64,000 nucleotides of DNA from Crossaster papposus (taxonomy: Eukaryota > Echinodermata > Asteroidea > Velatida > Solasteridae), in the NCBI GenBank assembly GCA_037893245.1, contig JBAIAA010000596.1:124001-188000 (forward strand), in the 5' to 3' direction. Position numbers and translations under genes: made by a program. The notes beneath the pieces are model-generated. The model did no database searches. It was not told the DNA's origin and saw nothing but the letters and a program-made list of their open reading frames with translations. Positions 516 to 46,500 of this stretch are shown here, one piece after another; positions within the stretch are counted from its first letter, which is position 1, and each line of letters starts with the position of its first letter.

Positions 516-3500
516 CTGAAACGGGAAAGAGACTGAATGTCAGTGATGGCTTCTAGTCCTGGAATGCCGCATGGGTGGCGTGGCACCTCGAGCGCTCGTA
601 CAAAAAAAAGGGTTCTAGATTCCTGATCTAGATCCAGATCATTCTGAAAATCTAATGGAATCATCCTGGACCCATAAGCTATCTGCCCACCAAGTTTTGT
701 TAAAATCCCTTCCAGAGTTATTCCGTAAGCCTGCTAACAGACAAACAGACACTGGGAGCCCGATAGACTGTCAGACAAACAGGCATGAATACATAGCCTC
801 CGCCATCAGAGATAGGCAGAGGTAAAAATCCCATTGCTAATTTTAGCCCCCGCAATCTCAAACAGCCCGGTTCCCAGACGGTCTGGGACAACCCCCGCCC
901 ACTTTGAGCGAGGGATTGTGATGCCCCTCCGAAGCGGGCAGGCCTGGATTAAGAGAACTAAGTAGAAGTCTAACTTGTGGGCGTGGGCTTGGGGGGGGGG
1001 GGGGTCTGTCCTGATCTGAACAAAAGAAGCAATTTCCGAGGGGATACTCCTCACTGCCACAGAACCAAAACTTGGCGATTCAAAGGCTGAGCTGTCAGGT
1101 AATCCCTCCCGCGATCTACTGTTGTTAGTAACTCATTGCTGATAGCAGCAATTGTTGACCTAGAGTGCCTCTCCAGCAAGCAACCAACCCTCACTCTTGA
1201 GTAACCGGGTGGCCAGTGTTCGTAGTAGAAAAGGGGCTCATCAAGTGAGCCGAGCTCGTCCGCTTATCAAACGGTCTCATTTGGGATCGCGTCCCTTAGG
1301 AACTATGGTGGTAAATGGATGATGACAGGCCGAGAGGGATGGGTTGTGCTTTATTTTGTTTACCTTGCTAGCGTGTTGTAAGCCTGGGCCAGAGCCCAGC
1401 AGGATCTCAAGGCATGGGAGGGTGATTCCTTGAGGAGCTCAACGCTCAGACGACGAAGCCACTCCACCCAGTCATCGCGGGAGACACGGCGGGTCACGGC
1501 CCAGGCCTGTAATCAATCCAGTCATCAATCATTGATCAATTAAAAAGCCACTTTTCCTGCTTGCATGATCTTCACAGTTTAGTAGTACAAGAAACACATG
1601 AACCTGTACACAGGGTGTCCCCTCAACAAAAACACATTGGACAAGCATACTTCCACTACCCCGAGGCGAAAACTACCTATACCAATGGATGGAGGATCTT
1701 TATAGAAGAACAAATTATACCAAGATATCTTGATTTGGGCTAGTAGTTTTAGCTGCAGACCCTATTTTGTAAAGCAAAGTCAGAGGTCCTTTTGTACCGG
1801 GAAGTAAACCGCGCCTGCAAAGTTAACATAACATTGTTTTGTTATTTCTCGTTAGTTATTTAACGAAAAGACCTACGACTTCACTTCACAAAATAGGGTC
1901 TGAAGCTAAAGCTACTGACCCATATTGAGATATCTTGACATCATTGTTCTTCCACAAAGATTCTCTATCCATTGGTATAGGTAGTTTTGGCCCTTGGGTT
2001 AGTAGAAATGTGACCCACTCCACAATAATGGGTATTATGTCACAAAATAGTGAAATTGAGTTATATACATGGTTGGAAAGCCCACAGCGTAAACTTCCAG
2101 TTAGTATATAATATAGCTCCATAGCTACTCCCGTTCTGGAGATATGACATGTTTGCTTTTGATTACTTCCTTGGAGTTCAAATTAAACAACCGAGAAAAC
2201 ATGCTTTGAAAAAGCCGGCTTTGTTGTAGAACAACAGAACAATGAACACAACATGGGCGTGTTTTCCACTTTAATCATCAAAATCAACATTTCTTTGAAT
2301 GAAACCTGAAAATATTGGTGTTTGAAGATGTCATTAATGGCAACAAATGTAAATCCCATTTTGATGAAATGTTTACCCTCTCAACTTTGAGGGGGCCATT
2401 ACATGATAATGCACAGCGCGACTTAATACCCTTTTTTGTAGAGCCGGTCACAAATATGCTTGTCAATTAGGGTACCTTGGTGAGATTGAAAGGTGTGAGG
2501 TCAAGAAATGACTGACTACCTTGAGATTGAAAGGTGCGAGGTCAAGAAATGACCCAGTATCTTGGTGAAATTGAAAGGTGCGAGGTAAAGAAATGACCGA
2601 GTACCTTGGTGAGATTGAAAGGTGCGAGGTCAAGAAATGACCGAGTACCTTGGTGAGATTGAAGGGTGTGAAGTAAAGAAATGACCGAGTACCTTGGTGA
2701 GATTGAAAGGTGTTAGGTCAAGAAATGACCGAGTACCTTGGCGAGATTGAAAGATGTGAGGTAAAGAAATGACCGAGTACCTTGGTGAGATTGAAAGGTG
2801 TTAGGTCAAGAAATGACCGAGTACCTTGGTGAGATTGAAAGGTGTGAGGTAAAGAAATGACCAAGTACCTTGGTGAGATTGAAAGGTGTGAGGTAAAGAA
2901 ATGACCAAGTACCTTGGTGAGATTGAAAGGTGTGAGGTAAAGAAATGACCAAGTACCTTGGTGAGATTGAAAGGTGTGAGGTAAAGAAATGACCGAGTAC
3001 CTTGGTGAGATTGAAAGGTGTTAGGTCAAGAAATGACCGAGTACCTTGGCGAGATTGAAAGGTGTGAGGTAAAGAAATGACCGAGTACCTTGGTGAGATT
3101 GAAAGGTGTGAGGTAAAGAAATGACGAAGTACCTTGGTGAGATTGAAAGGTGTGAGGTGAAGAAATGACCAAGTACCTTGGTGAGATTGAAAGGTGTTAG
3201 GTCAAGAAATGACCGAGTACCTTGGCGAGATTGAAAGGTGTGAGGTAAAGAAATGACCGAGTACCTTGGTGAGATTGAAAGGTGTTAGGTCAAGAAATGA
3301 CCGAGTACCTTGGTGAGATTGAAAGGTGTGAGGTCAAGAAATGACCGACTTCCTTGGTGAGATTGAAAGGTGTGAGGTCAAAAAATGACCGAGTACCTTG
3401 GTGAGATTGAAAGGTGTGAGGTCAAGAAATGACCGAGTACCTTTGTGAGATTGAAAGGTGTGAGGTCAAGAAATGACCGACTACCTTGGTGAGATTAAAA

Positions 3501-6500
3501 GGTGTGAGGTCAAGAAATGATCGAGTACCTTGGTGAGATTGAAAGGTGCGAGGTCAAGAAATGACCGAGTACCTTGTTGAAAATGAAAGGTGTGAGGTCA
3601 AGAAATGACCGAGTACCTTGGTGAGATTGAAAGGTGCGAGGTCAAGAAATGACCCAGTATCTTGGTGAAATTGAAAGGTGTGAGGTCAAGAAATGACCGA
3701 GTACCTTGGTGAGATTGAAAGGTGTGAGGTCAAGAAATGACCGAGTACCTTGGTGAGATTGAAAGGTGTGAGGTCAAGAAATGACCGAGTACCTTGGTGA
3801 AATTGAAAGGTGTGAGGTCAAGAAATGACCCAGTACCTTAATGAGATTGAAAGGTGTGAGGTCAAGAAATGACCGAGTACCTTGGTGAGATTGAAAGGTG
3901 TGAGGTCAAGAAATGACCGAGTACCTTGGTGAGATTGAAAGGTGTGAGGTCAAGAAATGACCGAGTACCTTGGTGAGATTGAAAAGTGTGAGGTCAAGAA
4001 ATGACCGAGTACCTTGGTGAGATTGAAAGGTGTGAGGTAAAGAAATGACCGAGTACCTTGGTGAGATTGAGAGGTGTGAGGTCAAGAAATGACCCAGTAC
4101 CTTGGTGAGATTGAGAGGTGCGAGGTCAAGAAATGACCGAGTACCTTGGTGAGATTGAAAGGTGTGAGGACAATAAATGAACGAGTACCTTGGTGAGATT
4201 GAAAGGTGTGAGGTCAAGAAATGACCGAATACCTTGGTGAGGTTGAAAGATGTGGAGTAAAAGAAATGACTGACTACCTTGGTGAGATTGTTGGTCTTGA
4301 CGTGGAGTTTCTTGAGACTGACAGGTTCCATGCCAGCGTTACCCTCATCCTTCTGGTTAGCTTTCTTAGCCCTGGTACGAAGCAGAAGCAACTCATCTTC
4401 TGCAATGGAGTTACCCTGTTGGGGGTGGAGGGAAGGAAGGGAGAGGAAATAAGAAAATTTGAACAGTTCAATTGCAGGCTGGCGCAGCGGTTGGCGCAGC
4501 GGTTCTTTCCTTGCCTTCCACCGCTATGACCCCTGTTCGAATCCCACCTGGACCAATATAGACGATGTGTCCTCTGACGCCACGTGTTTACATTTGTTAT
4601 CAAATGTGCCCGGCAGTATGCGCACACATTGTGTTTTACATAAAATTTGCTTAAAGAGTGCTGTCGCAGGTCAGATCGCCTTTGAATTATGTGACCTCTG
4701 ATGTCATCTTTTAACCAAATTTATGTAAAACATGATGCGTGCGCATACTGCCGGGCACAATTGAATACAGATGTAAACAGAGGGCACATGGTCTATATGC
4801 GAGGCGTTCTGGCAAAATGAGGCGGCACAGGGCATAGTGGAGAAAACTGACTGCAAAATAGTGAATTGTGGGTGATTTTGTTTTTTAATTTTCAGATTTA
4901 GTGATATTTGTAATCTTCGGTATGCCTACTAACTATATTTTGTAAAGAAATAGTGAGGAAGTAGTGGAATAAAAATGTTTTTAGGAAAAACAATTGTATT
5001 TTTCCATATCATGTGTACAAACTTTAACTTTAAAGGCATTTTTCTCCAATACTTTACTTTTGCCACATGTTGTTCAATGCGAACTTTAAACATTAAAGAT
5101 TAGCACATGGGATTTCACTGGTGTATACTCATTGGCGAGGGAGAGGCAATTGTTGTAAAGTGTCTAACCCAAGAACACAAATACCATATTCTTGTCAGGG
5201 TACCAGGTACCACGGCAAGAGTCAAACACCATCACCACTAGACCACAGCGCTCCACACAATTTCCCCCGGCTGGATTCCAAACCCACCTTGATGATCTTT
5301 AGCACCAGGGTCTCGTACTTCTGGTGGATGATGCGATGCTTGACCAGCACCTTGTTGACCATTGGCACAAAGATGTGGTACTTCTTGCCCAGCTGCAGGA
5401 CCAGGGACTCTAAGGTGTCCATGGCGATGGTGCGTAGCTCGGGGGTGGTGTCCAGGGTGCGCACCAAGGGGTGAATAATCCGAGAGGCAAAGTCCGTGAA
5501 GTCTAAGGTGCCGCACAGGAGGTCGATGGTCTCAAGGGCCGTTCTAAACAAAATAAATTTGAAAAATTAAAACATCTTGCCATTCGGTAAAACTATACTC
5601 GAAACCATTTGCAGGCTTTCACCCAGACACTTATTAATAAGTGATTCATATTATTAAGTGATTATTAAGTGATCGAAAAAGTGCGAGAAAAGGTGAACAA
5701 ATTGCAAAAAGGAGGAAATGAATACTAAAAAGAATACTAAAAGAAAAAGAATACTAAAAAGTCTGCTTTATAACTTGCAGTTACTTTAACCTGTTTTTAC
5801 TACTTAGTATATCACCATTTGCTTTTGATGTAATTTTCAGAACTGGAGGGATTAGGAGGTTGGTATTTAATACAACAAACACTGTTCCAAAAGAAAAAAG
5901 TGCTCTTCTCGTAATCTGGTTGCCTGGCCCTACTTTTGACAAAACGGAGCAATTTACAGACATCAAGGAACTGTTAGGTCAGAGAACCAGACTAGCTGGC
6001 TTACACCCATTCACAGATGAGTAAGCGATAGCGGACAAAATGAGGACTAACTAAAATTAGGGGCAGTATTTAAGCAAGTAGGTATTTAAGCCTGCAGTGG
6101 TTAAACGGTTACCAATTAACCGACCGTTCAAACAATTACACGGTTAAATTGTTCCGGTTCGGTTAACCGTAATCACATTTGTAACCTTTTATTTTTGGAG
6201 CATAGTACACGAAAGAGACATAAATCTAAACAATACAAAGCTTTGTTTGTCGGCGTTGTACAGGGGCGGGGGAATTTTGTTTACCTGTCTGGATACGTGT
6301 ATATAATTTTTGTTTGCGATTCCAATCTTTAAATTAGCGATGTTTGAACAATTTCTGCCGTTTACGTGGTAACAAATAAGATTATGAACAAATTTCCCAA
6401 CCCTTTTTTTATTTTTTATTTTTTTTCTCCCGTCGATTTATGGTTAACCGTAACCGTAACCGCAACACATAAGTTTACACGAATGATTTTAAAACTGCAA

Positions 6501-9500
6501 ACTTGCAGGCTTAGGTATTTCTTCCAGCGATGGTCGGCCGACCATTGACACTGTTGATGCTCACCTCCTGACAGTCATGGGGATGTCATTAGAGTCAAAG
6601 AGTTTGACCACCGGTGGAAGCAGAAGGTGGAGGTAGTCATCTAGATTGGCGCCAAACTTCTGCATGGCATTGAGCAGCTGCAAAGAAAAAAACCACACAA
6701 CTATCTGAATGTAATCTCCTAGCATTGTTTGCTGAGGTATGCAGTGGTGAAGATCAATAGTTCCATGGGATGACGAATCATGTCTAAATGATCTGAACTC
6801 CCTTACCTTGGTTGTGACAACGCGTCCCTGGCTGTTATCGTGCATGAAGACACGCAGCATCTGAGGCACGATACGTGGCAGGTACAGCTTGAATTCAGTA
6901 CACATGGCCACTACAGTCTAACTGAACCATGTCTAAATGATCTGAACTCCCTTACCTTGGTTGAAACAACGCGTCCCTGGCTGTGCATGAAGACACGCAG
7001 CATCTGCGGCACGATACGTGGCAGGTACAGCTTGAATTCACCACCCAGGGCCACTACAGTCTAACTGAACCGTGTCTGAATGATCTGAACTCCCTTACCT
7101 TGGTTGTGACAACGCGTCCCTGGCTGTTATCGTGCATGAAGACACGCAGCATCTGAGGCACAATACGAGGCAGGTACAGCTTAAATTCACCGCCCAGTGC
7201 GACCACGGTCTGCTCTACCAGCAGGATCACTGTGTTCTGCAGGGGGCTGTTGACCGTCCAGAAATCCTAAAAAGACGAATAATTATGCAATATGAGCGCA
7301 ACAACGGGTGTGCGCACTGGTTCGTGATCTAATTTCATTACCTTTTCCAAGGCCGTTTTTTTTTTTTGCCGGCATTTATTTTTTTGTTTATTTGTTTGTT
7401 GTTCGTTGGGGGTGTTGGGGTGTTTGAGTTTATGTTTTTGCCGGCATTTGTCTGCTAGAAGGATTACAAAAAAACTAATACAGGTATTTTAACAAAACCT
7501 GGTGGGTAGATAGCTTATGGGTCAAGAATGATTCCATTAAATTTTCAGATTGATCTGGACACAGGTCAAGAATATGGATAACTTTGAATGACTTTTTAAT
7601 GTTTTTGTGGTTGGAGCCAAGGTCTGCGTTCTATCGGGTGCACTTTTCATAGCTCTATATGAAACTTTGAAATAAGGCAAAAACTTACTCGGACAAGATC
7701 AAAGATGTCATCCAGGTAGTTGCGAATGTGCTGCTTCACGATGCAGATCATAATACCTAACTGCTGGAAAAGAAACTGTAAATAAAACAAATAAACAAAA
7801 TTAGTGGCTTTACTTTTCATCACAGTCTGTTGGTTTCATACAGAGTGTATAAAAACAAATGTCCCACTTTTAATAAAAAATTGACCTAAGATTACAATTC
7901 TATAATTTTGTGCAAATCTTTTTACATAGGTTGATAGACAATAGTTCAGTGCTTTTGTGTGTGTAATTGCACATACTCAACATGCCACGCGTGAGTGAGC
8001 ACAGGTTAATTACGTAAATTGCCTGTGTGCACTCATGTGTGACATGTTGAGTATATGCAATTGCACACAAAACAGCACTGAACCATTGTCTATCAACCTA
8101 TGTAAAAAGATTCGCAAACAAATTATTATACACATATGGACTGGCGATGAGGTCACTAGAGCACGTCTATTCCCCCGAGGGACTGTGAGTGACCAGAAGG
8201 GGGATCTATTTCCCGAGGCCGAAGGCCGAGGAAAATATAGGTCCTCCTTCTTGTCACTCACTGGCCCGAGGGGGGATAGGCATGCTCCTGTTACCGAATC
8301 ATGCCAGTCCATATGTGTTTTATAACACACCTTGAGCCGCGTTCGCATTGGACTTTTTTTGGTAAAACCTACGGAGACTGTTGTCAACTTTAACCAAATT
8401 AAATCCAATGCGGACAGAGGGTAACATTGTCAAATTGTCCATTTTACCCTCCGCAACAGTAAGATCTACAGGCCCAATCTTCTAGCGGAGGATTTAACAC
8501 CGTGAACTTTGACAATCACGTACGGTAACTTTTGACAATATTAAGTCCAATGCGAACGCGGCTTTGGTCTAAAAGATACAGACGTCGCCATTTTTCCTAT
8601 TAAGATGAGCCTGGCAAACCTCCTGAGGGCGCTGTAACCAGTCAAAAATTGTAAGTCTATTGCCCGCTTCGGGTACTATTTCCCGCAAATTCACGGTGGC
8701 GCAAATCTCATGCACTAGCCTATATTAGTTAACCCCACGTGACCGTGTTTCAGCCAACCAGAACACAGAACTAGCAAGAGGTGTGTTATAAAGAATATAA
8801 ATTTTAGGGCAATTTCTCAAAGTGGGACATTTTTTATGATACACCCTGTAGATCTACAGACTCACAAGGCAAATCAACAAGTCTTCCGGATCCAATCTAA
8901 GCCAAGTCAAGTAAAAGTTGCAAGCTGGTCAATTTGACAACTGAGACAAAGACATGTTACTTGTGAGTTTGTAGTTTGACTTTGTCATTCAATAAGCTAG
9001 TTTCGTATTCCAACTGTGCATGTGCACATAAAGATTTGACGCTTTTTTTTTAGACAAACATTTCATCGTAAACATGCAATAGCATAGCGGGTGCCAGCAA
9101 ATTTTAAAGGTAGGATACACCATTTGCAGATATCGAACAAATTTACTGCCGAATTATTAAGAAATATCTTACTCATCTGAAAGTAAACAATGATTCTAGG
9201 CATCAAGCAAATATTTGCGCTAGATATCTTTTAATTATTTTATAAAATATAATTTTATAAAGAAAAATTCGCGATCGCCCTCCAAAAAACACAAATAACA
9301 TAAGAATAACTGCTCGACGCCGGTTGAAAACAAACGCTGTTTTTTGTGCTTTTTTTGTCATTCACCATTCACCAAAACTTCGGACAGGTTAGTTAAACGA
9401 TATTTACTATAAAATACAACCCCCCAAATCCACTTATACATGATAATTCAAGCAATTACCAATGGTGTATACTACCTTTAAGAGATCGTTGTGTTCTAAA

Positions 9501-12500
9501 GTAACATTTTTAAACAAACGTTTAGACAGCAAAGTATTTTTAAGCATTTTGTGTGTCCAAACTTTTCTTCAGACAAATGTTTCCATCGTCTTTTCTAGTG
9601 CATAAAAAAATGCAAAATCATTCGGATTCAGTTACCACGTTCCCCATAGCATTGTGTGCATTTTATCCGCAACGTTTATCCCAAGGAAAAAATCGTCAAA
9701 TCTTGTGCACAGGCGCAGTTGGAATACAGAACTGGCTTATTGTGAAAAGATTGTCAAGGGCAACTGACCTCGCGGATGCCAGCGTCGCAGGTGCGGATCA
9801 CGTTCAGGTAGGTGGGCATGATCTGCGGCAGGAACTGGACGCACTTGACCCCGAGGCTCTTGAAGATGAAGGTGATGCCCTGGACCACACCCGTGTGGTG
9901 ATTGGCCAAGGATGCGTCCCGCATGATGCGCATCAGGGTCGCTATGGCGACGGCCGGGTAGAACTCCTCCAACGTGGCACTGCCCATGTTTACCAGCATC
10001 TCGCTGGCTGTGTACTCCCCTGACGACAAAGAATTTTGAAAGAACGATAATGAAATAATTGAGCTATGGATCTAGTCATCAAGATGACTGACTAACCTTC
10101 AGTTCCCACCTTGACATCCGACATGGATCTAGTAATCAAGATGACTGACTAACCTTCAGTTCCCATCTTGACATCCGACATGGATCTAGTCATCAAGATG
10201 ACTGACTAACCTTCAGTTCCCATCTTGACATCTGACATGGATCTAGTCATCAAGATGACTGACTAACCTTCAGTTCCCATCTTGACATCTGACATGGATC
10301 TAGTAATCAAGATGACTGACTAACCTTCAGTTCCCATCTTGACATCCGACATGGATCTAGTCATCAAGATGACTGACTAACCTTCAGTTCCCATCTTGAA
10401 ATCTGACATGGATCTAGTCATCAAGATGACTGACTAACCTTCAGTTCCCATCTTGACATCCGACATGGATCTAGTCATCAAGATGACTGACTAACCTTCA
10501 GTTCCCATCTTGACATCTGACATGGATCTAGTCATCAAGATGACTGACTAACCTTCAGTTCCCACCTTGACATCTGACATGGATCTAGTCATCAAGATGA
10601 CTGACTAACCTTCAGTTCCCATCTTGACATCTGACATGGATCTAGTCATCAAGATGACTGACTAACCTTCAGTTCCCATCTTGACATCTGACATGGATCT
10701 AGTCATCAAGATGACTGACTAACCTTCAGTTCCCATCTTGACATCTGACATGGATCTAGTAATCAAGATGACTGACTAACCTTCAGTTCCCACCTTGACA
10801 TGCGACATGGATCTAGTCATCAAGATGACTGACTAACCTTCAGTTCCCATCTTGACATCCGACATGGATCTAGTCATCAAGATGACTGACTAACCTTCAG
10901 TTCCCATCTTGACATCTGACATGGATCTTGTCATCAAGATGACTGACTAACCTTCAGTTTCCATCTTGACATCCGACATGGATCTAGTCATCAAGATGAC
11001 TGACTACCCTTCAGTTCCCACCTTGACATGCGACATGGATCTAGTCATCAAGATGACTGACTAACCTTCAGTTCCCATCTTGACATCTGACATGGATCTA
11101 GTCATCAAGATGACTGACTAACCTTCAGTTTCCATCTTGACATCCGACATGGATCTAGTCATCAAGATGACTGACTACCCTTCAGTTCCCATCTTGACAT
11201 CTGACATGGATCTAGTCATCAAGATGACTGACTACCCTTCAGTTCTCATCTTGACATCTGACATGGATCTAGTCATCAAGATGACTGACTAACCTTCAGT
11301 TCCCATCTTGACATCTGACATGGATCTAGTCATCAAGGTGACTAACTAACCTTCAGTTCCCATCTTGACATCTGACATGGATCTAGTCATCAAGATGACT
11401 GACTAACCTTCAGTTCCCATCTTGACATCCGACATGGATCTAGTAATCAAGATGACTGACTACCCTTCAGTTCCCATCTTGACATCTGACATGGATCTAG
11501 TCATCAAGATGACTGACTACCCTTCAGTTCCCACCTTGACATCTGACATGGATCTAGTCATCAAGATGACTGACTACCCTTCAGTTCCCATCTTGACATC
11601 TGACATGGATCTAGTCATCAAGATGACTGACTAACCTTCAGTTCCCATCTTGACATCTGACATAAATGTAGTCATCAAGATGACTGACTAACCTTCGGTT
11701 CTCATCTTGACATCTGACATAGATCTAGTCATCAAGATAACTGACTACCCTTCAGTTCCCATCTTGACATCTGACATGGATCTAGTCATCAAGATGACTG
11801 ACTACCCTTCAGTTCCCATCTTGACATCTGACATGGATCTAGTCATCAAGATGACTGACTAACCTTCAGTTCCCATCTTGACATCTGACAATAAATGTAG
11901 TCATCAAGATGACTGACTAACCTTCGGTTCCCATCTTGACATCTGACATAGATCTAGTCATCAAGATTACTGACTAACCTTCAGTTCCCATCTTGACATC
12001 TGACATGGATCTAGTCATCAAGATGACTGACTAACCTTCGGTTCCCATCTTGACATCTGACATAGATCTAGTCATCAAGATTACTGACTAACCTTCAGTT
12101 CCCATCTTGACATCTGACATGGATCTAGTCATCAAGATGACTGACTACCCTTCAGTTCTCATCTTGACATCTGACATGGATCTAGTCATCAAGTTGACTG
12201 ACTAACCTTCAGTTCTCATCTCGACATCTGACATGGATCTAGTCATCAAGTTGACTGACTAACCTTCAGTTCTCATCTCGACATCTGACATGGATCTAGT
12301 CATCAAGATGACTGACTACCCTTCAGTTCCCATCTTGACATCTGACATGGATCTAGTCATCAAGATGACTGACTACCCTTCAGTTCCCATCTTGACATCT
12401 GACATGGATCTAGTCATCAAGATGACTGACTACCCTTCAGTTCCCATCTTGACATCTGACATGGATGTAGTCATCAAGATGACTGACTACCCTTCAGTTC

Positions 12501-15500
12501 CCATCTTGACATCTGACATGGATCTAGTAATCAAGATGACTGACTACCCTTCAGTTCCCATCTTGACATCTGACATGGATGTAGTCATCAAGATGACTGA
12601 CTAACCTTCAGTTCCCATCTTGACATCTGACATGGATCTAGTAATCAAGATGACTGACTACCCTTCAGTTCCCATCTTGACATCTGACATGGATCTAGTA
12701 ATCAAGATGACTGACTACCCTTCAGTTCCCATCTTGACATCTGACATGGATCTAGTAATCAAGATGACTGACTACCCTTCAGTTCTCATCTTGACATCTG
12801 ACATGGATGTAGTCATCAAGATGACTGACTACCCTTCAGTTCCCATCTTGACATCCGACATTGATGTAGTCATCAAGATGACTGACTAACCTTTAATTCC
12901 CATCTTGACATCCGACATGGATCTAGTCATCAAGATGACTAACTAACCTTCAGTTCCCATCTTGACATCTGACATGGATCTAGTCATCAAGATGACTGAC
13001 TAACCTTCAGTTCCCATCTTGACATCCGACATGGATCTAGTCATCAAGATGACTAACTAACCTTCAGTTCCCATCTTGACATCTGACATGGATCTAGTAA
13101 TCAAGATGACTGACTACCCTTCAATTCCCATCTTGACATCTGACATGGGTCTAGTCATCAAGATGAATGACTAACCTTCAGTTCCTATTTTGACATCTGA
13201 CATGGATCTAGTCATCAAGATGACTGACTAACCTTCAGTTCCCATCTTGACAACTGACATGGATCTAGTCATCAAGATGACTGACTAACCGTCTGTTCCT
13301 ATCTTGACATCCGACATGGATCTAGTCATCAAGATGACTGACTAACCTTCAGTTCCCATCTTGACATCTGACATGGATCTAGTAACCAAGATGACTGACT
13401 AACCTTCAGTTCCCACCTTGACATCTGACATGGATCTAGTCATCAAGATGATTGACTAACCTTCAGTTCCCATCTTGACATCCAACATGGATCTAGTAAT
13501 CAAGATGACTGACTAACCTTCAGTTCCCATCTTGACATCTGACATGGATGTAGTCATCAAGATGACTGACTACACTTTAGTTCCCATCTTGACATCCGAC
13601 ATGGATCTAGTCATCAAGATGACTCACTAACCTTCAGTTCCCATCTTGACATCTGACATGGATCTAGTCATTAAGATGTCTGACTAACCTTCAGTTCCCA
13701 TCTTGACATCTGACATGGATGTAGTCATCAAGATGACTGACTAACCTTCAGTTCCCATCTTGACATCTGACATGGATGTAGTCATCAAGATGACTGACTA
13801 CACTTCAGTTCCCATCTTGACATCCGACATGGATCTAGTCATCAAGATGACTCACTAACCTTCAGTTCCCATCTTGACATCTGACATGGATCTAGTCATT
13901 AAGATGTCTGACTAACCTTCAGTTCCCATCTTGACATCTGACATGGATGTAGTCATCAAGATGACTGACTAACCTTCAGTTCCCATCTTGACATCTGACA
14001 TGGGTCTAGTCATCAAGATGAATGACTAACCTTCAGTTCCCATCTTGACATCTGACATGGATGTAGTCATCAAGATGACTGACTACACTTCAGTTCCCAT
14101 CTTGACATCCGACATGGATCTAGTCATCAAGATGACTCACTAACCTTCAGTTCCCATCTTGACATCTGACATGGATCTAGTCATTAAGATGTCTGACTAA
14201 CCTTCAGTTCCCATCTTGACATCTGACATGGATGTAGTCATCAAGATGACCGACTACCCTTCAGTTCCCATCTTGACTTCTGACATTGATGTAGTCATCA
14301 AGATGTCTGACTAACCTCCAGTTCCCATCTTGATATCTGACATGGATCTAGTAATCAAGATGACTGACTTACCGTCTGTTCCTATCTTGACATCTTACAT
14401 GGATCTAGTAATCAAGATAACTGGCTAACCTTCAGTTCCCATCTTGACATCCGACATGGATCTAGTCATCAAGATGATTGACTAACCTTCAGTTCCCATC
14501 TTGACATCTGACATGGGTCTAGTCATAAAGATGAATGACTAACCTTCAGTTCCCATCTTGACATCCGACATGGATCTAGTCATCAAGATGACTGACTAAC
14601 CTTCAGTTCCCACTTTGACATCCAACATGGATGAAGTCATCAAGATGACTGACTAACCCTCAGTTCCCATCTTGACATCTGACATGGGTCTAGTCATAAA
14701 GATGAATGACTAACCTTCAGTTCCCATTTTGACATCTGACATGGATGTAGTCATCAAGATGACTGACTAACCTTCAGTTCCCATCTTGACATCTGACATG
14801 GATGTAGTCATCAAGATGACTGACTAACCTTTAGTTCCCATCTTGACATCTGACATGGATCTAGTATTCAAGATGACTGACTAACCTTCAGTTCCCATCT
14901 TGACATCCGACATGGATCTAGTATTCAAGATGACTGACTAACCGTCTGTTCCCATCTTGACATCTGACATGGATCTAGTCATCAAGATGACTGACTACCC
15001 TTCAGTTCCCATCTTGACATCTGACATGGATCTAGTATTCAAGATGACTGACTAACCTTCAGTTCCCATCTTGACATCCGACATGGATCTAGTATTCAAG
15101 ATGACTGACTAACCGTCTGTTCCCATCTTGACATCTGACATGATTCTAGTCATCAAGATGACTGACTAACCTTCAGTTCCCATCTTGACATCTGACATGG
15201 ATCTAGTCATCAAGATGACTGACTACCCTTCAGTTCCCATCTTGACATCTGACATGGATCTAGTAATCAAGATGATTAACTAACCGTCTGTTCCTATCTT
15301 GACATCTGACATGCTCAGCGCTGCTCCACCCTCCCCGTGACTGTCTACAAAGCCCTGGTTGAGTTTGTGTTTGTACGGGTCTAGAGCACCCAGTAAACCC
15401 AGCACTCTGATGGTCTACAGAAAGTAGACAAAAAAGGAATTCATTTAGTAGACACAACATGTGTGGCATGCAAATAAGAGGAAAGATAAGAATGAGACTT

Positions 15501-18500
15501 GCATGGAGACATGAACATGGATAGGTTGAAACATTGAGTTAAACAACCGGTTCTTCTCTTTAACATATAGCATCGGCAGTTATATGTTCTGGAATTAAAA
15601 TCTGCCTAAATAGTATTTGATATACCCAGAGTATTCAATATACCCAGAGGATTGCTAACATTATGTCAACATAATATGTTGACATAATTTCAACAACAGT
15701 GTTTGGTATTTTTTTACACAAAAATCGGGAGCCAAGGATGGGGTTTGGTGTAGAAGAATGTTAGGTATAGCGGTGTTCGGTATAGCGGCGTTCAACTGTA
15801 TATGTATATGAATATTTATGCCAAAATGATTTCGGCCATCTCATATATTGGACCCAATGTGTGGAAATTTGGTGTTTAATTAATATTAAAATGAAGCTGA
15901 ACATTTTTGTATAACAATTATTGGCAATTACCTCTCTGCGGATGTTTGCCGACTGCTCTGTCTTAAGAAAGTTGAGAAGTACATCCAGCAGGTTGGAGTA
16001 CTTCTTGTAAGGTTCTACCACCGAGCCAGTGCTTTCCACTAGCTGACCGAGGGTCCAGAGAGCTACCTAAGCATGGGGTACGATAAGTAATAAACAGGGT
16101 CAATAAACTACATCCAGCAGGTTGGAGTACTTCTTGTAAGGGTCTACCACCGAGCCAGTGCTTTCCACTAGCTGACCAAGGGTCCACAGAGCTACCTAAG
16201 CATGGGGTACGATAAGTAATAAACAGGGTCAATAAACTACATCCAGCAGGTTGGAGTACTTCTTGTAAGGGTCTACCACCGAGCCAGTGCTTTCCACTAG
16301 CTGACCGAGGGTCCAGAGAGCTACCTAAGCATGGGGTACGATAAGTAATAAACAGGGTCAATAAACTACATCCAGCAGGTTGGAGTACTTCTTGTAAGGG
16401 TCTACCACCGAGCCAGTGCTTTCCACTAGCTGACCGAGGGTCCAGAGAGCTACCTAAGCATGGGGTACGATAAGTAATAAACAGGGTCAATAAACTACAT
16501 CCAGCAGGTTGGAGTACTTCTTGTAAGGGTCTACCACCGAGCCAGTGCTTTCCACTAGCTGACCAAGGGTCTGCAGGGCTACCTAAGCATGGGGTACGAT
16601 AAGTAATAAACAGGTTCAATAAACTACATCCAGCAGGTTGGAGTACTTCTTGTAAGGTTCTACCACCAAGCCAGTGCTTTCCACTAGCTGACCAAGGGTC
16701 CACAGAGCTACCTAAGCATGGGGTACGATAATTAATAAACAGGGTCAATAAACTACATCCAGCAGGTTGGAGTACTTCTTGTAAGGGTCTACCACCGAGC
16801 CAGTGCTTTCCACTAGCTGACCAAGGGTCTACAGAGCTACCTAAGCATGGAGTACGATAAGTAATAAACAGGGTCAATAAACTACATCCAGCAGGTTGGA
16901 GAACTTCTTGTAAGGGTCTACCACCGAGCCAGTGCTTTCCACTAGCTGACCAAGGGTCCACAGAGCTACCTAAGCATGGGGTACGATAAGTAATAAACAG
17001 GGTCAATAAACTACATCCAGCAGGTTGGAGTACTTCTTGTAAGGGTCTACCACCGAGCCAGTGCTTTCCACTAGCTGACCAAGGGTCCAGAGAGCTACCT
17101 AAGCATGGGGTACGATAAGTAATAAACAGGGTCAATAAACTACATCCAGCAGGTTGGAGTACTTCTTGTAAGGGTCTACCACCGAGCCAGTGCTTTCCAC
17201 TAGCTGACCAAGGGTCTGCAGGGCTACCTAAGCATGGGGTACGATAAGTAATAAACAGGTTCAATAAACTACATCCAGCAGGTTGGAGTACTTCTTGTAA
17301 GGTTCTACCACCAAGCCAGTGCTTTCCACTAGCTGACCAAGGGTCCACAGAGCTACCTAAGCATGGGGTACGATAATTAATAAACAGGGTCAATAAACTA
17401 CATCCAGCAGGTTGGAGTACTTCTTGTAAGGGTCTACCACCGAGCCAGTGCTTTCCACTAGCTGACCAAGGGTCTACAGAGCTACCTAAGCATGGAGTAC
17501 GATAAGTAATAAACAGGGTCAATAAACTACATCCAGCAGGTTGGAGAACTTCTTGTAAGGGTCTACCACCGAGCCAGTGCTTTCCACTAGCTGACCAAGG
17601 GTCCACAGAGCTACCTAAGCATGGGGTACGATAAGTAATAAACAGGGTCAATAAACTACATCCAGCAGGTTGGAGTACTTCTTGTAAGGGTCTACCACCG
17701 ACCCAGTGCTTTCCAGCAGCTGACCAAGGGTCCACAGAGCTACCTACCACAGAGTTTTTTTAGTCTGACAAAAACCTTAGGGAAACTTAATATTTCGGGC
17801 AATATTCTCTGGCTGTCAACACAAGACTGAGGGATTCCAATTTGCCATTATGTCAATGATCATTCAAGTACGAAACAAGCTGTCGGCAAATTTTCTTCTT
17901 CCATTAAACTTTTACAATGTATACAAATTGTATTAGTTATCCACATTAGTTATCAGGGGAGTCAGGTTGACATAGCAGTCATTCCTCAAATTCCACCGCT
18001 GTGACCCGGGTTCGAATCCCACCTGGGCCAACATGCGGACTGAGTTTTCAGTCCCTGCCTGATTTCGTGGGTTTTGCCCCAGGATATTCTTCTAGGTTTG
18101 TCCTTCTACATTTGTACCTCTAAAAATTTACCTTCTTCTCATTGTCTTCCTACATGTTTCTTCAGGCTTACGAGCTGAAGGGCACTTTTGAGGAATCCTC
18201 GGTTTCATTACAAAAAATCAATACAAATAATCACAAGAAGTTGCAACAAATTTCACAGAAATTATTTCATTCCTCAAAGGGATCGTATACATTTGGTAAT
18301 TACTCCAAATTTTCGGCAATATCTCAAAATCGGTACCACCTTTTGAAATGAAATTTTTACAGGTTAGTTTTATGGTATGTATCTATAACTATAATAGGAT
18401 TGAAACAAACAATGGGTTCCAATTACCAAATGTGTACGATCCCTTTAAGGTCATCACTAGCATACATGTATCAACAATTGCCTTTTCCTGATTTGTCCAA

Positions 18501-24500: not shown

Positions 24501-27500
24501 GACTCGTCAGTCTTCTTTGCTATCTGCACAAAATAATGATATGCAAGAAACCTAAAATTAAAAACTTTTTTAGTACAACAGAAAGAGTTTCATATATGAT
24601 GCATAGTATGCAATCATACATTTAAGCACAATATCATCAATGCCATGCATCCTACTGTAATAAGCAGTAATATTTTACTTCAATAAATGTATCCAAGACT
24701 ACATGTATTCATAAATTTTATGTCAATTGTTGCCATATCAAATTCCGGTGTTTTTGCAGTTGAGACAATTTAGAAAGTATATTTTGATAGACAAAGTAAA
24801 CTGTATTTTATCATAAGAATCAGTGGCTAAAACCAATCTATACTTACAGTTGCCATGTACACAACGTTTTTCTTTTGCTTTTCATTATGCACCATTACCG
24901 CCACATGTGTACCCTCGTCAAGTATTGTCCTGCAAAGAGATACAATTGGAGAGGTGTAATATTAAATTTGCCAGTAGTATGAACATGATGAAAGATAACA
25001 TTGCTCTGTGATAATCACTACCGTGGATTTGAAATGAATTAATATAACCTACTTTTGTTTCATTACATTGTCATTCTGCCTCCATCATTTCAATAACTTG
25101 CAATTAAAGTGGACAACAATGGTCAGAATTTAAGTAGGCCTACCTTTTTTCAGCCATTTGTTCCACCGTTGTTCCACCATCTTCTGCCTGGTCATCTCCC
25201 TCTATCTGCTCCTCTTCTATCTGGTTACCTTCCTCCCCATGGTGTACCTCTGCCTTGTCACGTCCCTCATCATGGTCAGCGGGAGTAGTAGATTGGGTAG
25301 TGTCGTTGTCATCCGTGTTGTGCGTAGACGAAGGACGAACGTTAGGGTCACTTGCTTCTCCTTCTAGAATGTCATCTGTATGGATTTAAGTAATGGTAAA
25401 CAATAAACGTTATGAATGTTATAAAATCATAAAATGTAGTGCGTTAAAAAATGCAGTAGCCAAAACAGTTTTGAGATACACGTAGTAAGAGATTGAGTCA
25501 GGATTTTATACAAATTGGGCGTGTACCCATTTTCAAATGTTCAAATGAACAGATTTAAGGCTTAAATGCATTTTATTTTTATTTTATCCATATAGTTTTG
25601 TAGCTAAAATCATTAAAAATATTATGTATATTATTTTCCCTGTAACAAATTACACACTGAAAGATACAAGTAAATTATCTAACTATTTTATCACTTTAGT
25701 GAAAAAAATTATGTAGAGGAATAAGAAGAGTTAATTTGCTACAGTCATAGACAGTGAAACACAGATTAGCAAATTCTTATACATGTACCTTGTTTGTTGT
25801 TGTACAGGTGAGCTACCTTCCAGGGACGGACAAACCGGGCATTTTGGCATCTTCCAACTCCTCTTTAATAGACAGGGTTCACAGAAGCAGGATAGGGTCC
25901 TCGTGTCAACCTTCCCTCCTTTGATACTCTTAATACTGTGAAGCTTCCTGGTCCCCTTGACAGTTTTAACTAGTCTGTGTGGTCTGTCTCTGCAAATGTC
26001 CTCGCTCTTTACAAAAAACACTGATCTCCGGAATGGCAGACAACAACTGCTGCTGGCTTCGATGGCAACATTGTCCTTAAGATACTTGTATAGATCTTCT
26101 GGAGTGCTAATGATTGCCGTCTCTGCTTTAACAGCATCTGAAGCTTTCCTCTTGACTACCCCACTTTCTCCATCGCTAGCCCCTTTTCCATGTCGGGTCC
26201 CGGAGTAATTATGGTGCAAGGTCATTTGGTAATCCTCCCTTCCATAGCTGATATCTGAAATGGGTCCCTTGCTTTTGTACTGACTACTACACCCATCCGA
26301 GAAGCGGTAAAATGTTGTAATGTTCAACTCCCTGGTTGTTGTTAGATGATGTACGATGCGTTGTTGGAAACTGTTCACTGCATGATAATCATGCAACAGG
26401 TCATTACTGACCATGATGGCACTTTCCCGTACACGTTCTTGGCATTGTGGGCATTGATAATACAAGACGATCGGATGTACTGTTGCCGAATCCTGCGCAT
26501 AATACGCACTCTGGACTTCGCGCTGGTGCCCGCACTTGTAATTCTCAGCGAAGTCATACACTCCAAGTACTTCATCGGGTTGAAGATTCTTGATCAGCGA
26601 TTTCTGTTGGTCATTCTGCCAATCCTTATTGAACAAATGTTCAGTAAAGGGATGAGCTTCATCTTTTAGTTCCTTGATGAGCTTATCAACAGTGCCCTCC
26701 TTCAGAATGGGTTTTCTCTTTTTTATCTGTTTCGTGCCTTTCTTGCCATGATATGTTGTGGTAACAAGCTCCCACCTCTGCCATATTACCGTCCTGTTGG
26801 GTTGCGATTGGACTTTTTCCAGCTTTTCATCCAGGTTGGTCAGTCCACACTTGCCACATTTTCTTTTGATGCATTGCGGCTGATGGAATTTCAAACCGTT
26901 AGGTTTGGCACACATTGTGCAGGCTGCCAGGTCATACTCGTTCTTGAATGTGCCAGGTTCAAGTTTATTTATTGCTTGTATTTTTAGGTTTATGTTCTCA
27001 CAATACTCGCAGAGGCATCCATTATATTTTGCTGCAGATTTGCACTTGACATGAATGGGACGGTGTGTATAGAAGATGGTGGCACACACTGGATTTTCTT
27101 GATTTTCTTTTGTGTACTTCTCGTACAGTTGTGCCAATGAACAGTCCATAATATGTCTTGGTTTACCGGTTTTCTTGGAGACGAGCTTTTTGTCAGGTAG
27201 TGGATTTGAATTGGCCTCGTAGAACTCCTGCACAGATTTGATGGCTTCTGGCAAAACACGTTTCCGCCCAGCTGTTTGCTTTTTTGCCTTTCCAAGCAGT
27301 TTTCGACTGCATCCAAAATATCTAGATGCTGCCCTTAGTTGTCTACGTCTTTTTATTTCACTGAGAGCCGTCGCCATATGTTTTCGCTTTGCCAACTTCC
27401 TTGGTGCAGCAAGGACAGCCGCAACAGCCTCCATTACACCTTCCTGCAATGGATTTACCGGTGCTATACCAGCCTGTTTTAGTGCAGCCGCTTTTCTCGG

Positions 27501-28479
27501 GGACGATTTGTTTACAAGGTCAATCATGGTTTGTACGTTTTGGGATCGACGTCTTGGTAGTGATGATCTTACTCTCTCCAGAGCTTTTCTTCTTGCATTT
27601 TGTGAACGTGTGTCAATGGCCTCATCCTCTGGTAACATGTTATTTCTTGTTTCCAGTTCTTCATTTTTATCAATTAGTTCTGCTTCCATGTTTTGCAACT
27701 GCTCTTGCAATGCCATCAACTGTTTGTCCTGCTCTGCTTCTTTGGCCTGTAACTCTTCCTGTAATTTCTTGATATGTTCTTCTTGTTCCTGTAACGCTCT
27801 CTGTTTGTCTTCAAGCATCATTTCTCTCATTTTGTTATTCTTTATCGCATACAGTTCTCGACGCCTTGCTTTGATTGCTTCCTTTCTTTCGTCTGTGAAC
27901 CCTGTACGCTGGCGTCTCTTCCTTTCTGCTTCATTCGACCTTTTTTTGTTGCTTTGTTGCCTAGTAAGAATTTTCTTTTGCTTCCTACTTGCAGCTTCTT
28001 CAGCCTTTTTTTTCTTATTGAATTTCTCCATTCTCTTTCGTTGTTCCTTTTCTTCTTATTCTGCCATTTCTCTGCCTCTTCGTTTTGGCTTGGAGACAAA
28101 TTCCTCTTCTTAAGAGTGGATTCTGCAGTTGCACACTGTAATCTGTAGAGTCGGCTATAATTGGCAGCATCTTGTTGCATTTGCTTGTATTTGGTCGGGT
28201 TTGTCTCTCTTATTTTGTGTCTCCAATTCTGCGTTTTTGACTTTTTGGGGCCTTCGATCGTGGATGAACCTTCTAAATCCTGATGTGTCTGTGACTTGGA
28301 GTTGGAGGGGCCTTCACGATGGTTAAATCGAATTCTCAAATTGAAGGAGAGGGCATTTCTTTTCGTCTTCTCCTTGCATTCTGGCATCTTAGTGGGGATG
28401 TTGTTTTTTTTCTCTTTGCATTTCGGCATCTTGGTGGTTCCTGCAATTTAATATAAAAAAAAAATCATAAGACAATTTA

Positions 28480-40500: not shown

Positions 40501-43500
40501 TCATCACAAAATGAGCGTAAAGTCGCACGGAGTGATTTCCCAATACGGCCAGTCAAAGTCAAAATTTGAAGGGGTGGTCGATTTTGAGATTATATGTTTT
40601 GTTTTAAAGACTAAATCCCCAACAATCAATTCCCAAATTTTCAGGACGATCAGATAAAAAATTATTAGTTTTTGAGACAATTTTGACTATGCCTTTCTTT
40701 GCGCGTTCATACAATTTCTCGCAAGAATTGCCCGTTTTCTCATTATCTCTGTATTAGGACTCCAGAATAAAAAATAAAAATTAAAGTATCAAACCTCCAA
40801 GTGTTATATACCATTCGAAAGCTCTGTTTCCACAGAATTTGGAAATACCCATATCTCAAATTTTGATTTTGCCGACTTTACGCTCATTTTGTGATGACAG
40901 GTCACATTTAATATAGCTCTATGGTTTGAACACACAGCTACATGTACTTACTGATTGACAAATCTTGCAGGTTGGAAGGCAGCTAGCCTGGGTATGAGGG
41001 TCAGTAGGGTCTGTTGTATGAGAGGACTGCGGCTATTACGGTACTTCAACACCTGCTGACACACCTTCAAAAGCACACCAGAATATAACCAAATTCCATA
41101 TCAGTAGAATCCTAAGAAATGTGATTTGCAATGAGGAGCCATTCTACAACCTTTTTTTCCCCCTGAAATTTGTCAATTTTAAAACTCAGTTTGTGCTGAT
41201 TTTAAATTTAACAAATGAAAAAGAAGAAAATGAGGGGTCGTTTTCCAGCACTTGTGGAAAGTTTTTTTTTAATAAACATGTCCGACTTTTGTTTTGAATC
41301 CAGAATGTGAACAGAGCACTGTAAGGTCGACCCAAATATCAATCCTCTATTAACCAGTTCGCGCCCGATTATTATAACATCACCGAGCCGAGGCGCGGGA
41401 TTATTTATAACAAAACTCGATCCGAGGCGGGTTCAGGCTGATGGTACCGGGAAGCACACCCACGCATTCCAGGCCTTGCTCGCAGCTGACAAACGTTTCC
41501 AGCCTTGCTCGTGACGTGTTTATGCGTCATCTGTTTTGAATCTGGGAAAAACTTTGTGTGTTTTGCTGCGTTCCAATCGCGTCGTGTTTGTCGTGTTCAC
41601 TGTGAATTTCTCCATGTTCACGAGTAGGTTGCATTCCAAACGCTACTTACCAAGACGCACGCGCACAGTCGAGTTAGTTGTGCGGTAAGGACATTCTTTA
41701 TCGCGCAAGAACTCGTACGTGGACCAACACGCATGCGCGAGCATTTCATTCGTTATGAAGTCGTGAACATGGAGAAAAAGAATCCACCTCGAGTTCACCC
41801 CTGGTGAACACGAGTTACCAGGCGATTAGAACGCCATTATACGACTCGTGAACTCGTTAACACGATAAACACGACGCGATTGGAACGCAGCATATATACG
41901 TCCTCCAGCTAAGGATTTGGCCCTCAATGCAAAGGCCAAGGATTTGGCCCTCAATGCAAAGGCCAAGGATTCGGCCCTCAACGCAAAGGCTAAGGATTTG
42001 ACCCTCAATGCCAGTCTCACCTACCTCATCAAATTTGGATTCCATCAGCTCCCGGCAGAAGCGGCTCTCTACAAAGCGGGGCTTGGGCTGCAGGCTAGGG
42101 GAGACCAGGGAGGACAGGGCGCCGGTGACCGAGGAACGTTGGGTGTGCTGCAGGGCCTGGGCAACCCCCGTGGGTAAGATGCTGAGACGCGACTTGAGGC
42201 TGGAACCGTGGAACTCCTTCAAGAAATACGGGAGAAGACCAATGTAAAACACAGCACAAATTCTAAGGGGTCACCTCAAAACCAATACTGGAAAAAGGTG
42301 CAGGAAAATTGTCTCCAGAAGACTGAATCGGCAAACAGTATGAGAAAGAAAATTTCGAAACCTCATCTCTGCGCATGCGATTTTAAAAACAACTCATGTC
42401 CACGTTTTGTTAACCCGCTTGGTTTTAGAGCCCCAAATGTGTACATACTACCCAGGAGCGAAAGCAGGAATTTATGAATGTGGGGTCCTAGCCATGGGTG
42501 GGGGGTCTCTCCCCCAGAATTCTTTTTTACAGTAGAAGCTCTGAGGTGCATTCTGGGACATTATGAGCCTATTTTTCTTATATATTTTGATCGTTTAGAT
42601 CTATTGGGAATCTTTTACAGTAAGTACCACGCTGCTATTTTGCTCTGATATAAAAATACATTAAAAAAATTATCAAAAAAACAAAAAAATGCATTCTAAA
42701 AATGCAAGAGCCCAGTTTAAATCAACTTCAAAACATTACTTCTAATGTAATTTACAATTGTTACAATTGTTTTTACATTTCCTCTGATCAAGATGTTACT
42801 TTTTTTCGAAATAGTTTTAACTTCTACGAGCCAACAATTTTCTCCATGTGATATTTCAAGAAACTGACCTAACAAACAACATACTTCCAGCCTAACTGCC
42901 TTGAGAAATAAAAAGCCAAATGGCTAAGTGGATGTGGTTAAATAAAACAAAGGAAGATTTCCAAAGTTGAGGACCAACAGCATTAAAATGATTAACAGCT
43001 CAACACAACTGAATGAATATTCAATTAATGGGCCCTATACTTATCACCGTGGTTTCTGGTTGAAGGGATCGTATACGTTTGGTAATTGGAACCCACTGTT
43101 TGTTTCAATCCTATATAGTTATAGATATATACCATAAAACTAACCAGTAACAATTTCATTTCAATAGGTGGTAGCGATTTTGAGATATTGCCCAAATCTG
43201 GAGCGGTTATGTCCACGCAGGAAGAATAATCTGCATTGGAATACACACTCTGAGAAACGTCACTGCAGTAACGCTTTTCAGATTCAAATTTTTGGGGCTA
43301 AAAAGTGATATCTTTTTCGAAAACCGCAATACTTCGAAGTGAAAAGTTTCTAAAAATGCATTATACTATCCAAAGCTGCTGTACTTCTTACCAAGTAAGT
43401 TTTTATTGCCATTCATTTTTGGAGTAATTACCAAACGTATACGATCCCTTTAAGAACATTTTCAATTGAATACTGGTAAATAAAATATAAATGTAAAACT

Positions 43501-46500
43501 TTTACTTGGGAGGTGCACGGTTCCTCATAAGGCAAATTGAGTATAGGGAGGGGGTAAATAGTTTATTTTAAAATACTTTGACAAATGAAAGAGTAAGTTT
43601 ATATATTGGTGAAAATCTCGGCAGATACTACCGCTACAGTTTACATTGAAGTTGGTGTGTCCATGATTTTTTGGTGTGGCACCCCGAAAATAGATTGAAT
43701 TAATAATTTTCTAGCATTGTATACGTTATGAGCTTTCAAATGAGACATCTCACAAAAATATGGTTAAAACTTTTTGCAATAAGTGGTCGCACCGAAAGTC
43801 TGCTTGTACTGTACATACACAATCTGAGACAACTCCTGTATCCAGTCAGAGATAGTGTGTATACATGCAATTTATTCCACGTAGAGTGTAATACACTACA
43901 GCGCGTTTCGCGCATCGATCGCATGCGTGCTGCACGTGTGTACAGTTGTCCACAGGGCATGGCTAACTCACAAACGGTGATAGGACACATCATGGCTAAG
44001 TGCGTAAAATGAAGTGCGAAAGCCTTTCGATTTGCAACTTCAAGTGATACCCAAATTGAAAAACATGGGTTTCAATCGATAAACAAAAACTACGAGAAAA
44101 TGAACTGAACTTTTCATTTTAAAACTAAAAAGGCAGAAATATCAAATGGTCAGCAAAAAAAAAAAAGCAGTGAATGTCTGTTGTAAGCTGGTAAGTTTTA
44201 GAAGATTAATCATGGAAAAAAATGCCAAAAACTAAAAATCAAAATGACAAAAAGGCAGAGAGAACATGGTCAATTGATGATAACTATCTGGTAGTGCAAA
44301 CATGTGGCGAGTATAAATGTACTGCAAGAAACTCCAAACTGCTTGTGCCTGTATATACAGGGCTACTACCTTGGGCAATCGCAGGAAACGATTGCGATTA
44401 CGCCGGTACCAATGCTCCGGAGTTGTCGGCTGTAAAACCAGAGCAAAATTAAGTGTCAAACGAAGGAGGCAAAACAAAAACAAAAAAGATTCTGCATCAC
44501 TTTAACCAGTTCGCGCCGGGATTATTTTAACATTTACCGAGCCGAGGCGTGGGATAATTTTTAACGAAACTCGATCCGAGGCGGGTTCAGGCCGATGGTA
44601 CCGGGAAGCACACCCACGCATTTCCGGCCTTGCTCGCTGCCGACAGTCATTTCCGGCCTTGCTCGTGACGTGTTTATGCGTCATCTGTTTTGAATTTGGG
44701 GAAAACTTTGCTTGTACATGTATATACTTCCTCTGGCGCGAACTGGTTAACCCTAACCCTGCTAAACACGCAGTGCATCAGGAAAAAAAAGTTACAATAT
44801 ACCATTTGTCAGTTGTGCACTGTTTTTCCTTTAACCCTAACCCCCTAGGCCCTCGCACTAGAAAGCCTATCAAACCCAAACAAACTTCAACGGCTCACAC
44901 AGGTTCAGTAATTATTGGTACACTGTACTGAACCAAAGCAGTTTTAAGTTTTAGTCTATACCATTGGAAAAAAATAAACACGCTGAAAATAGCAGGTAAA
45001 ATACAATTACAGCCATGTAAAATCAGTTCCTGTTGTTTCACAATTTGTTTTTGAAAAATTCGTTAAAATTATTTTAGTTATCAACGTTTCAAATAGCAAA
45101 ATACCTGACAATTGGTACAACACGGTCGTCCTAGGCATTCATTTGGGGTACAGTACACGTTACTACGAAACACTATTCAATTCTCATAGGCCAGTGTTGT
45201 AGTGCTGCATACTGCAGTTTAAAGTAGTGTAGTATTTGGTGACGTTAGCCTTAAAGGGATCGTATACGTTTGGTAATTACTCCAAAAATTAATGGCAATA
45301 AAAACTTACTTGGTAAGAAGTACAGCAGCTTTGGATAGTATAATGCATTTTTAAAAACTTTTTACTTCGAAGTCCTGCGGTTATGGAAAAAGATAACACT
45401 TTTTATCCCCCAAAAGTTGAATCTGAGAAGCGTTACTGCAGTTGCGTTTCTCAAAGTGTGTATTCCAATGCAGATTATTCTTCCTGCGCGGACATAACCG
45501 CTCCAGATTTTAGGCAATATCTCAAAATCGCTACTACCTTTTGAAATGAAATTTGTACAGGTTAGTTTTATGGTATATATCTCTAACTATATAGGATTGA
45601 AACAAACAGTGGGTTCCAATTACCAAACGTATAACGATCCCTTTAATCTGTGCCTAATTGCATATTCATTTGATCTCACACATCAAGGAATCACAGATAA
45701 AAATGAGGTCATCAGCGATCATGTCAAAGTTCAATCATTTGAACACTGTAGCGACGTCGCTAGCCTGTCAGCGACTAGCTGCTGAAGCTGTTATAGCGAC
45801 CAATAACCGACAGGTTTGATGATCACATTATTTTCTTTCAGTCGCGCGACGGACTTTAAACCAGGCTTTACATTCTACAACATGTTAAGCTGAATAAATA
45901 AAGTGTAGAAAGTGAATCAGTTTGAAGATTTCTGAAAAGCAGATTTCAGAGCCAATTTCAGTGACATAATGTGCATTATACCCAAAATGGCATGGAGCTA
46001 TGTATAGTGTGTAGGTTTCACTTAACTCTTATGCACAGTGTTAATATTTCAGTGTATACTACGTACATACTGTACTTTCCATGCACATGCCTTTATAAAG
46101 AAATACTCGGATAAAGGCTATGCTTGGTTTAAAATCTGAATAGCAATACACCCTCTACGACACTAACAGTCAAAAGAAGTTATGAATTAGTACATGAGAA
46201 GCTTGTGTGCAAGCAGCTCAATGTCAAATTAATTTGCAAGATTCAAAGAATGCAGAGAGTAGGGAAAAAAACATTCTTACATGCAATTTCATGCAAATTC
46301 TGATTCACTTTTGTTTTATAATACATACATACACAATAACATGCTTTTAATAAATTTGACTGATGGCTGGTCAACCTGCCAAAATGTCTGCCAGTTAAGC
46401 AAATCAACCAGCCTGCAAGATAGCCAGTTAAGAAACCAGCCAGCCTACCAGCCAGCCTGCAAGCCAGCCAGCCAGTCAAGCAAACCAGCCAGTCAAGCAA

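Follow-up and report, generated by a model that had tools for sequence, protein, structure and literature searches.

Tandem duplications that resemble minisatellites and span exon-intron boundaries are known from amphioxus as "mirages", with examples in Adh3 and in the globin genes BflGb6 and BflGb9 (PMC3087553). According to the excerpts of the published reports on which our account of all described systems relies, mirages occur at 5' as well as at 3' exon boundaries, many of their copies keep the AG or GT, and their border units escape homogenisation (PMC3087553). Their units measure 10-72 bp in Adh3 and 150-160 bp in the globin genes, the two haplotypes of BflGb6 carry 6 and 3 repeat units, and the Adh3 data together with the authors' reverse transcription polymerase chain reaction experiments on the globins suggest that regular splicing is undisturbed in amphioxus (PMC3087553). 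The globin study cites further amphioxus loci with similar structures and proposes that introns were gained from such repeats in the globin genes (PMC3087553), and mirages have been reported in several unrelated amphioxus genes (PMC3087553, PMC3902484). Lancelet PGBD5 has imperfect repeats of 60 and 108 bp that overlap splice sites and number 2 to 7 copies depending on the sequence version, and troponin C (TnC) is a further case (PMC3902484); the hosts of these published mirages are cephalochordates (PMC3087553, PMC3902484). Human segmental duplications contain minisatellites at exon-intron boundaries, on average 30-bp units present four times and in variable number, which reportedly alter transcripts and are able to give rise to new introns (PMC2812944), and the potato RdRp gene gained an intron by one tandem duplication across an intron-exon boundary (PMC4974935). 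The present analysis concerns the mTOR gene in a 64,000-nucleotide stretch of contig JBAIAA010000596.1 (positions 124,001 to 188,000; hereafter the window), in which four tandem arrays straddle four splice junctions.

The arrays were called with Tandem Repeats Finder and their units were then laid out in transcript orientation, which places every unit of the four across its exon-intron junction, at a donor in three arrays and at an acceptor in one. Array A (2472-4290, minus strand) repeats a 44-bp unit of 13 exonic and 31 intronic nt in 41.4 copies at the donor of exon 26, the real junction being at 4278/4277. Array B (6775-7211, minus strand), scored by Tandem Repeats Finder as 3.0 copies of 143 bp, lies at the donor of exon 23 (real junction 7099/7098) and consists of the end of the real exon together with two copies, one of 143 and one of 149 bp, each with 105-111 exonic and 38 intronic nt. 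Array C (10066-15313, minus strand) comprises 92.1 copies of a 57-bp unit (29 exonic and 28 intronic nt) at the donor of exon 20, with the real junction at 15285/15284, and array D (15980-17746, minus strand) comprises 13.7 copies of a 129-bp unit (87 exonic and 42 intronic nt) at the acceptor of exon 19, with the real junction at 16067/16066. Each array has one real junction, located in the terminal copy on the exon side. Tandem Repeats Finder and the exon model thus agree with an earlier sequence-only reading of this DNA that there are four real tandem arrays at splice junctions of mTOR, and the unit layout bears out its description of each as holding a piece of the exon plus a splice site (the donors of exons 26, 20 and 23 and the acceptor of exon 19). 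Its statement that the arrays start exactly at an exon edge needs correction: on the exon side the arrays begin inside the exon, by 13 nt in exon 26, 29 nt in exon 20, 87 nt in exon 19 and about 111 nt in exon 23. The far intronic ends of A and D do lie at copied junctions, 4 nt beyond a copied donor in A and at a copied acceptor in D. Array C has CAT at its exonic start and CAT again at the opening of its far flank, a 3-nt microhomology, read by eye, of the kind that slippage could leave.

The mTOR gene is on the minus strand, and the window carries approximately its 5' half. Its exon model was built by tblastn with a human mTOR guide in combination with splice signals; coding exons 1-28 of this model occupy 353-58156 (minus strand), and the gene extends beyond the left edge of the window. 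The 28 coding exons give 1,337 codons and no internal stops, and the whole model matches guide residues 21-1369 with 68% identity. Against solved human mTOR (full-length chains of 2,549 residues), 862 model residues align as a single stretch over residues 504-1369, with small gaps of 1-2 residues each. The solved protein is one residue longer at the exon 20/21 junction, and at none of the four array junctions does the protein of the window carry additional residues. The tblastn and splice model and the solved-structure alignment together define coding exons 26 (4278-4415), 23 (7099-7266), 20 (15285-15414) and 19 (15932-16066), all on the minus strand; exon numbers count from the first modelled coding exon, and these four are the same as in the sequence-only reading. 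The modelled protein runs on continuously with human mTOR, no gained intron appears in the model at the four array junctions, and the arrays are presumably spliced out normally.

These arrays are genuine, have statistical support and form a well-developed case of a kind already known, and the earlier view that no system like them had been described does not hold, since the same structure has been published for amphioxus and boundary repeats for human segmental duplications. As in the amphioxus mirages, so far as the excerpts describe them, the mTOR units span the boundary on either side of the exon, and many but not all copies keep the AG or GT. The mTOR units of 44, 57, 129 and 143-149 bp lie between the published extremes (10-72 and 150-160 bp, with 60 and 108 bp in PGBD5), and the exon-side border copies of arrays A and C have diverged from the interior ones. 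What sets mTOR apart from the amphioxus cases covered there is the crowding of four arrays into eight consecutive exons of a single gene and a copy number of up to 92. PGBD5 likewise has two junction arrays in one gene, with repeats coinciding with or overlapping splice sites, but its copies are few (2 to 7) and imperfect. Human segmental duplications share the minisatellite units at exon-intron boundaries but differ in their reported effects on transcripts and in their new introns; the mTOR model gives no sign of a new intron. In potato RdRp the duplicated segment also crosses an intron-exon boundary, but there a single duplication led to a new intron, whereas the mTOR arrays run to many copies and the model contains no gained intron. 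The features that are unusual here are the occurrence of four arrays in one gene, their copy numbers and the correlation with hairpin formation described below. Among the papers listed by a literature search that covered mainly open-access articles, none reported boundary-spanning tandem repeats in mTOR. A sea cucumber genome preprint, searched for two terms, and an earthworm paper on intronic minisatellites likewise yielded nothing of relevance.

The position of the arrays is not what random placement would give. With spanning defined as at least 10 nt on each side, the probability that a founder unit placed at random in the gene spans one of 55 junctions is 0.024 for 44 bp, 0.036 for 57 bp, 0.10 for 129 bp and 0.11 for 146 bp, so that the chance of four of four arrays spanning junctions is about 1e-5 as a product, and that of at least 4 of 11 arrays doing so is 0.005. 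By either count the arrays sit at junctions beyond chance, as the sequence-only reading had supposed. Four exons fall within eight consecutive exons in 3.7% of random draws of four from 28.

Sequence differences among the copies follow a pattern of concerted evolution from which the border units are excluded, at both ends in A and on the exon side in C, and array D bears a sign of turnover in a five-unit block of 645 bp that is repeated with 1 mismatch. Ranked by divergence, the exon-side copy comes 1 of 41 in A and 2 of 92 in C, and the far-end copy of A comes 2 of 41. In array B, the two exon 23 copies have in common seven codon differences from the real exon, all of them synonymous and none lying beyond nt 48 of the 111 (within 6807-7266). 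Each copy has, in addition, private changes that affect the protein. Copy 1 differs from the real exon by 10 synonymous and 1 non-synonymous base differences and a 6-nt deletion, and copy 2 by 7 synonymous and 5 non-synonymous ones. Under free drift for as long as the exon has evolved, seven of seven shared differences would be synonymous with a probability of about 0.002-0.004, in a test framed after the pattern had been seen; candidate explanations are a conversion tract that stopped partway through the exon and an exchange with a haplotype that had diverged.

The two high-copy arrays are also those with fold-prone units. For the consensus units of arrays A and C, the best single-strand fold is better than that of 99 or 100 of 100 shuffled sequences, whichever strand is taken, and a one-strand fold test agrees (z of about -3.5 for both), whereas the consensus units of B and D do not reach that level. 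The exon-side copies of A and C have no excess fold stability over shuffles, and 39 of the 40 other copies in A and all 91 in C are more stable than the exon-side copy. Tentatively, these predicted folds fit a hairpin-assisted expansion in arrays A and C.

We propose that these are four separate minisatellites of the mirage type, each arisen by tandem duplication of a junction-straddling segment and then grown into the intron, and we regard this as very probable. A short segment straddling a splice junction would have been duplicated in tandem, separately at each of the four junctions, and the duplicate would have grown into the intron via replication slippage and unequal exchange. The terminal copy, joined to the rest of the exon, would retain the working splice site, and the remaining copies, being intronic, would drift even as they homogenised each other. 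For A and C, it may be the hairpin-forming units that amplified furthest.

Several observations weigh against this proposal. Similarity between copies has no clear decay with distance (Spearman 0.177 in A, where the permuted maximum is 0.188, and 0.030 in C), and therefore the data do not demonstrate slippage between neighbours as the sole process; at the far end of C the copy is ordinary, ranking 41 of 92 by divergence. The copies of array D look slightly constrained, not free: variability in the exonic part is 0.008, 0.021 and 0.029 at the three codon positions, and the exonic part as a whole has a higher value (0.0195) than the spacer (0.011), all on few variable sites. The hairpin link is a tentative comparison of two arrays with two, and the copy numbers could carry assembly error. 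The choice of the right splice site poses a further difficulty. The copies that score at least as high as the real donor number 65 of 91 in C, 7 of 40 in A and both in B. Shielding of the array donors by RNA structure was considered and rejected for the large arrays, since by predicted folding the real site is no more accessible than 23 of 40 copies in A and 74 of 91 in C; the two copies of B are less accessible than their real donor (0.081 and 0.033 against 0.103). With such strong copies in C, and a real site that is no more accessible in either A or C, the choice of the right site is unexplained.

The copies could instead be functional, with many splice sites being kept by selection so that weak sites attract the splicing machinery or mTOR output is tuned via unproductive isoforms. 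Most copies do retain the signal: GT is kept in register in 37 of 40 copies in A and 66 of 91 in C, where at least 21 more carry GGTAGT (GT one base later), the donor is kept in both copies of B, and AG precedes all 13 extra copies of D as read from the units. The real donors of the two large arrays A and C score 4.85 and 6.35, below the mean of 8.50 (sd 1.72) of the 25 other donors, and in the model a premature stop follows from the use of 143 of the 146 alternative sites, which is what a nonsense-mediated-decay switch calls for, the exceptions being three array A donors that keep the frame open. Selection on the sites themselves is hard to reconcile with the donor's nine-base window, which is not conserved above the remainder of its unit: 34 of 44 windows in unit A and 42 of 57 in unit C are equally or more conserved. 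Weak real splice sites were also rejected as the cause, because under leave-one-out scoring, counted from the weakest, the exon 26 donor ranks 5 of 28, the exon 23 donor 23 of 28 and the exon 19 acceptor 6 of 27, and the exon 20 donor is absent from the ten weakest donors. With donors no better kept in A and C and with premature stops at nearly all alternative sites, selection for more sites, which the sequence-only reading had entertained, or a coding use is unsupported, and we consider functional copies very improbable.

A coding use would mean that the arrays stay in the transcript, or are spliced as additional exons, and extend the protein by repeats (43 codons per unit in D, 29 of them in the exonic part). 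Unit lengths of 129 and 57 are divisible by three, the spacer of D opens with GT and closes with AG, the exonic part of D is most variable at the third codon position, and the three open-frame donors of array A mentioned above would permit it. Against this, an in-frame stop interrupts the exonic part in 2 of the 13 D copies, premature stops arise at every one of the 13 alternative acceptors of D and the 91 alternative donors of C when these are retained, no such insertion is present in human mTOR, and the D spacer, taken as an intron of 42 nt, would be very short. Of all explanations weighed, this one strikes us as the most far-fetched. An origin of the copies, or an inflation of their number, in the assembly process has in its favour that long near-identical arrays are hard to assemble, that the 645-bp block of D is near-identical, and that the excerpted report on lancelet PGBD5 has copy number differing between two sequence versions (PMC3902484). 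The number may indeed be inflated, but the units differ at many sites, the exon-side copies are distinct, array B consists of three well-differentiated copies, and the invention of four junction-straddling arrays is not plausible; an artefact is accordingly very improbable in our judgement.

Splice junctions, donors above all, might be preferred birthplaces of arrays in this genome, be it that of a cephalochordate or not, with hairpin-forming units then running to tens of copies, so that the junction would set the start and DNA hairpins the growth; we hold this to be rather unlikely. Eight further arrays lie at a median of 194 nt from a junction, compared with 745 expected (P = 0.017), as soft evidence from a hand-picked set that left out A-rich rows (28444, 28485 and 33567), nested rows and others (e.g. 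41367 and 54914). In six of these eight cases the closest junction is a donor. When 54 junctions were scanned for copied exon pieces, exons 23, 19 and 20 were clearly above shuffles, and exon 26, with a copied exonic stretch of no more than 13 nt, for that reason only equalled the shuffle maximum. Short exonic pieces can thus escape the scan, and with that limit no older, decayed array stands out at the remaining 50 scanned junctions.

The mTOR cluster is of use for two questions. With up to 92 working-looking copies of a splice site beside the real one, it is a natural test of how the spliceosome ignores decoys, and it also tests whether the birth of arrays is biased to exon-intron boundaries. 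The arrays are moreover raw material for intron gain of the kind proposed in the excerpted study of the amphioxus globin genes (PMC3087553), and if the host is not a cephalochordate, the range of mirages widens.

Other repeats and open frames were noted in the window. A 27-bp array at 41911-42011 starts 14 nt downstream of the exon 7 donor and does not include the donor, a CCAG-rich tandem repeat of 1.5 kb (46422-47927) lies in an mTOR intron 134 nt from a donor, and a 12-bp array at 52239-52476 repeats TGAAAGGACTCG in about 20 nearly perfect copies (98% matches). The 10.7-kb intron 15 of mTOR contains an open frame of 766 aa (25731-28031, minus strand), perhaps a mobile element, for which Pfam gave no match at E 0.01. 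Scans of the 64-kb window for tRNA genes and Rfam families returned no matches, and some of its dispersed repeats give an echinoderm-like impression. At 62797-63819 on the plus strand, head-to-head with mTOR, there is a gene for a UbiA-family prenyltransferase (Pfam PF01040), probably UBIAD1; UBIAD1 and mTOR presumably stand in the same order in human as they do in the window.

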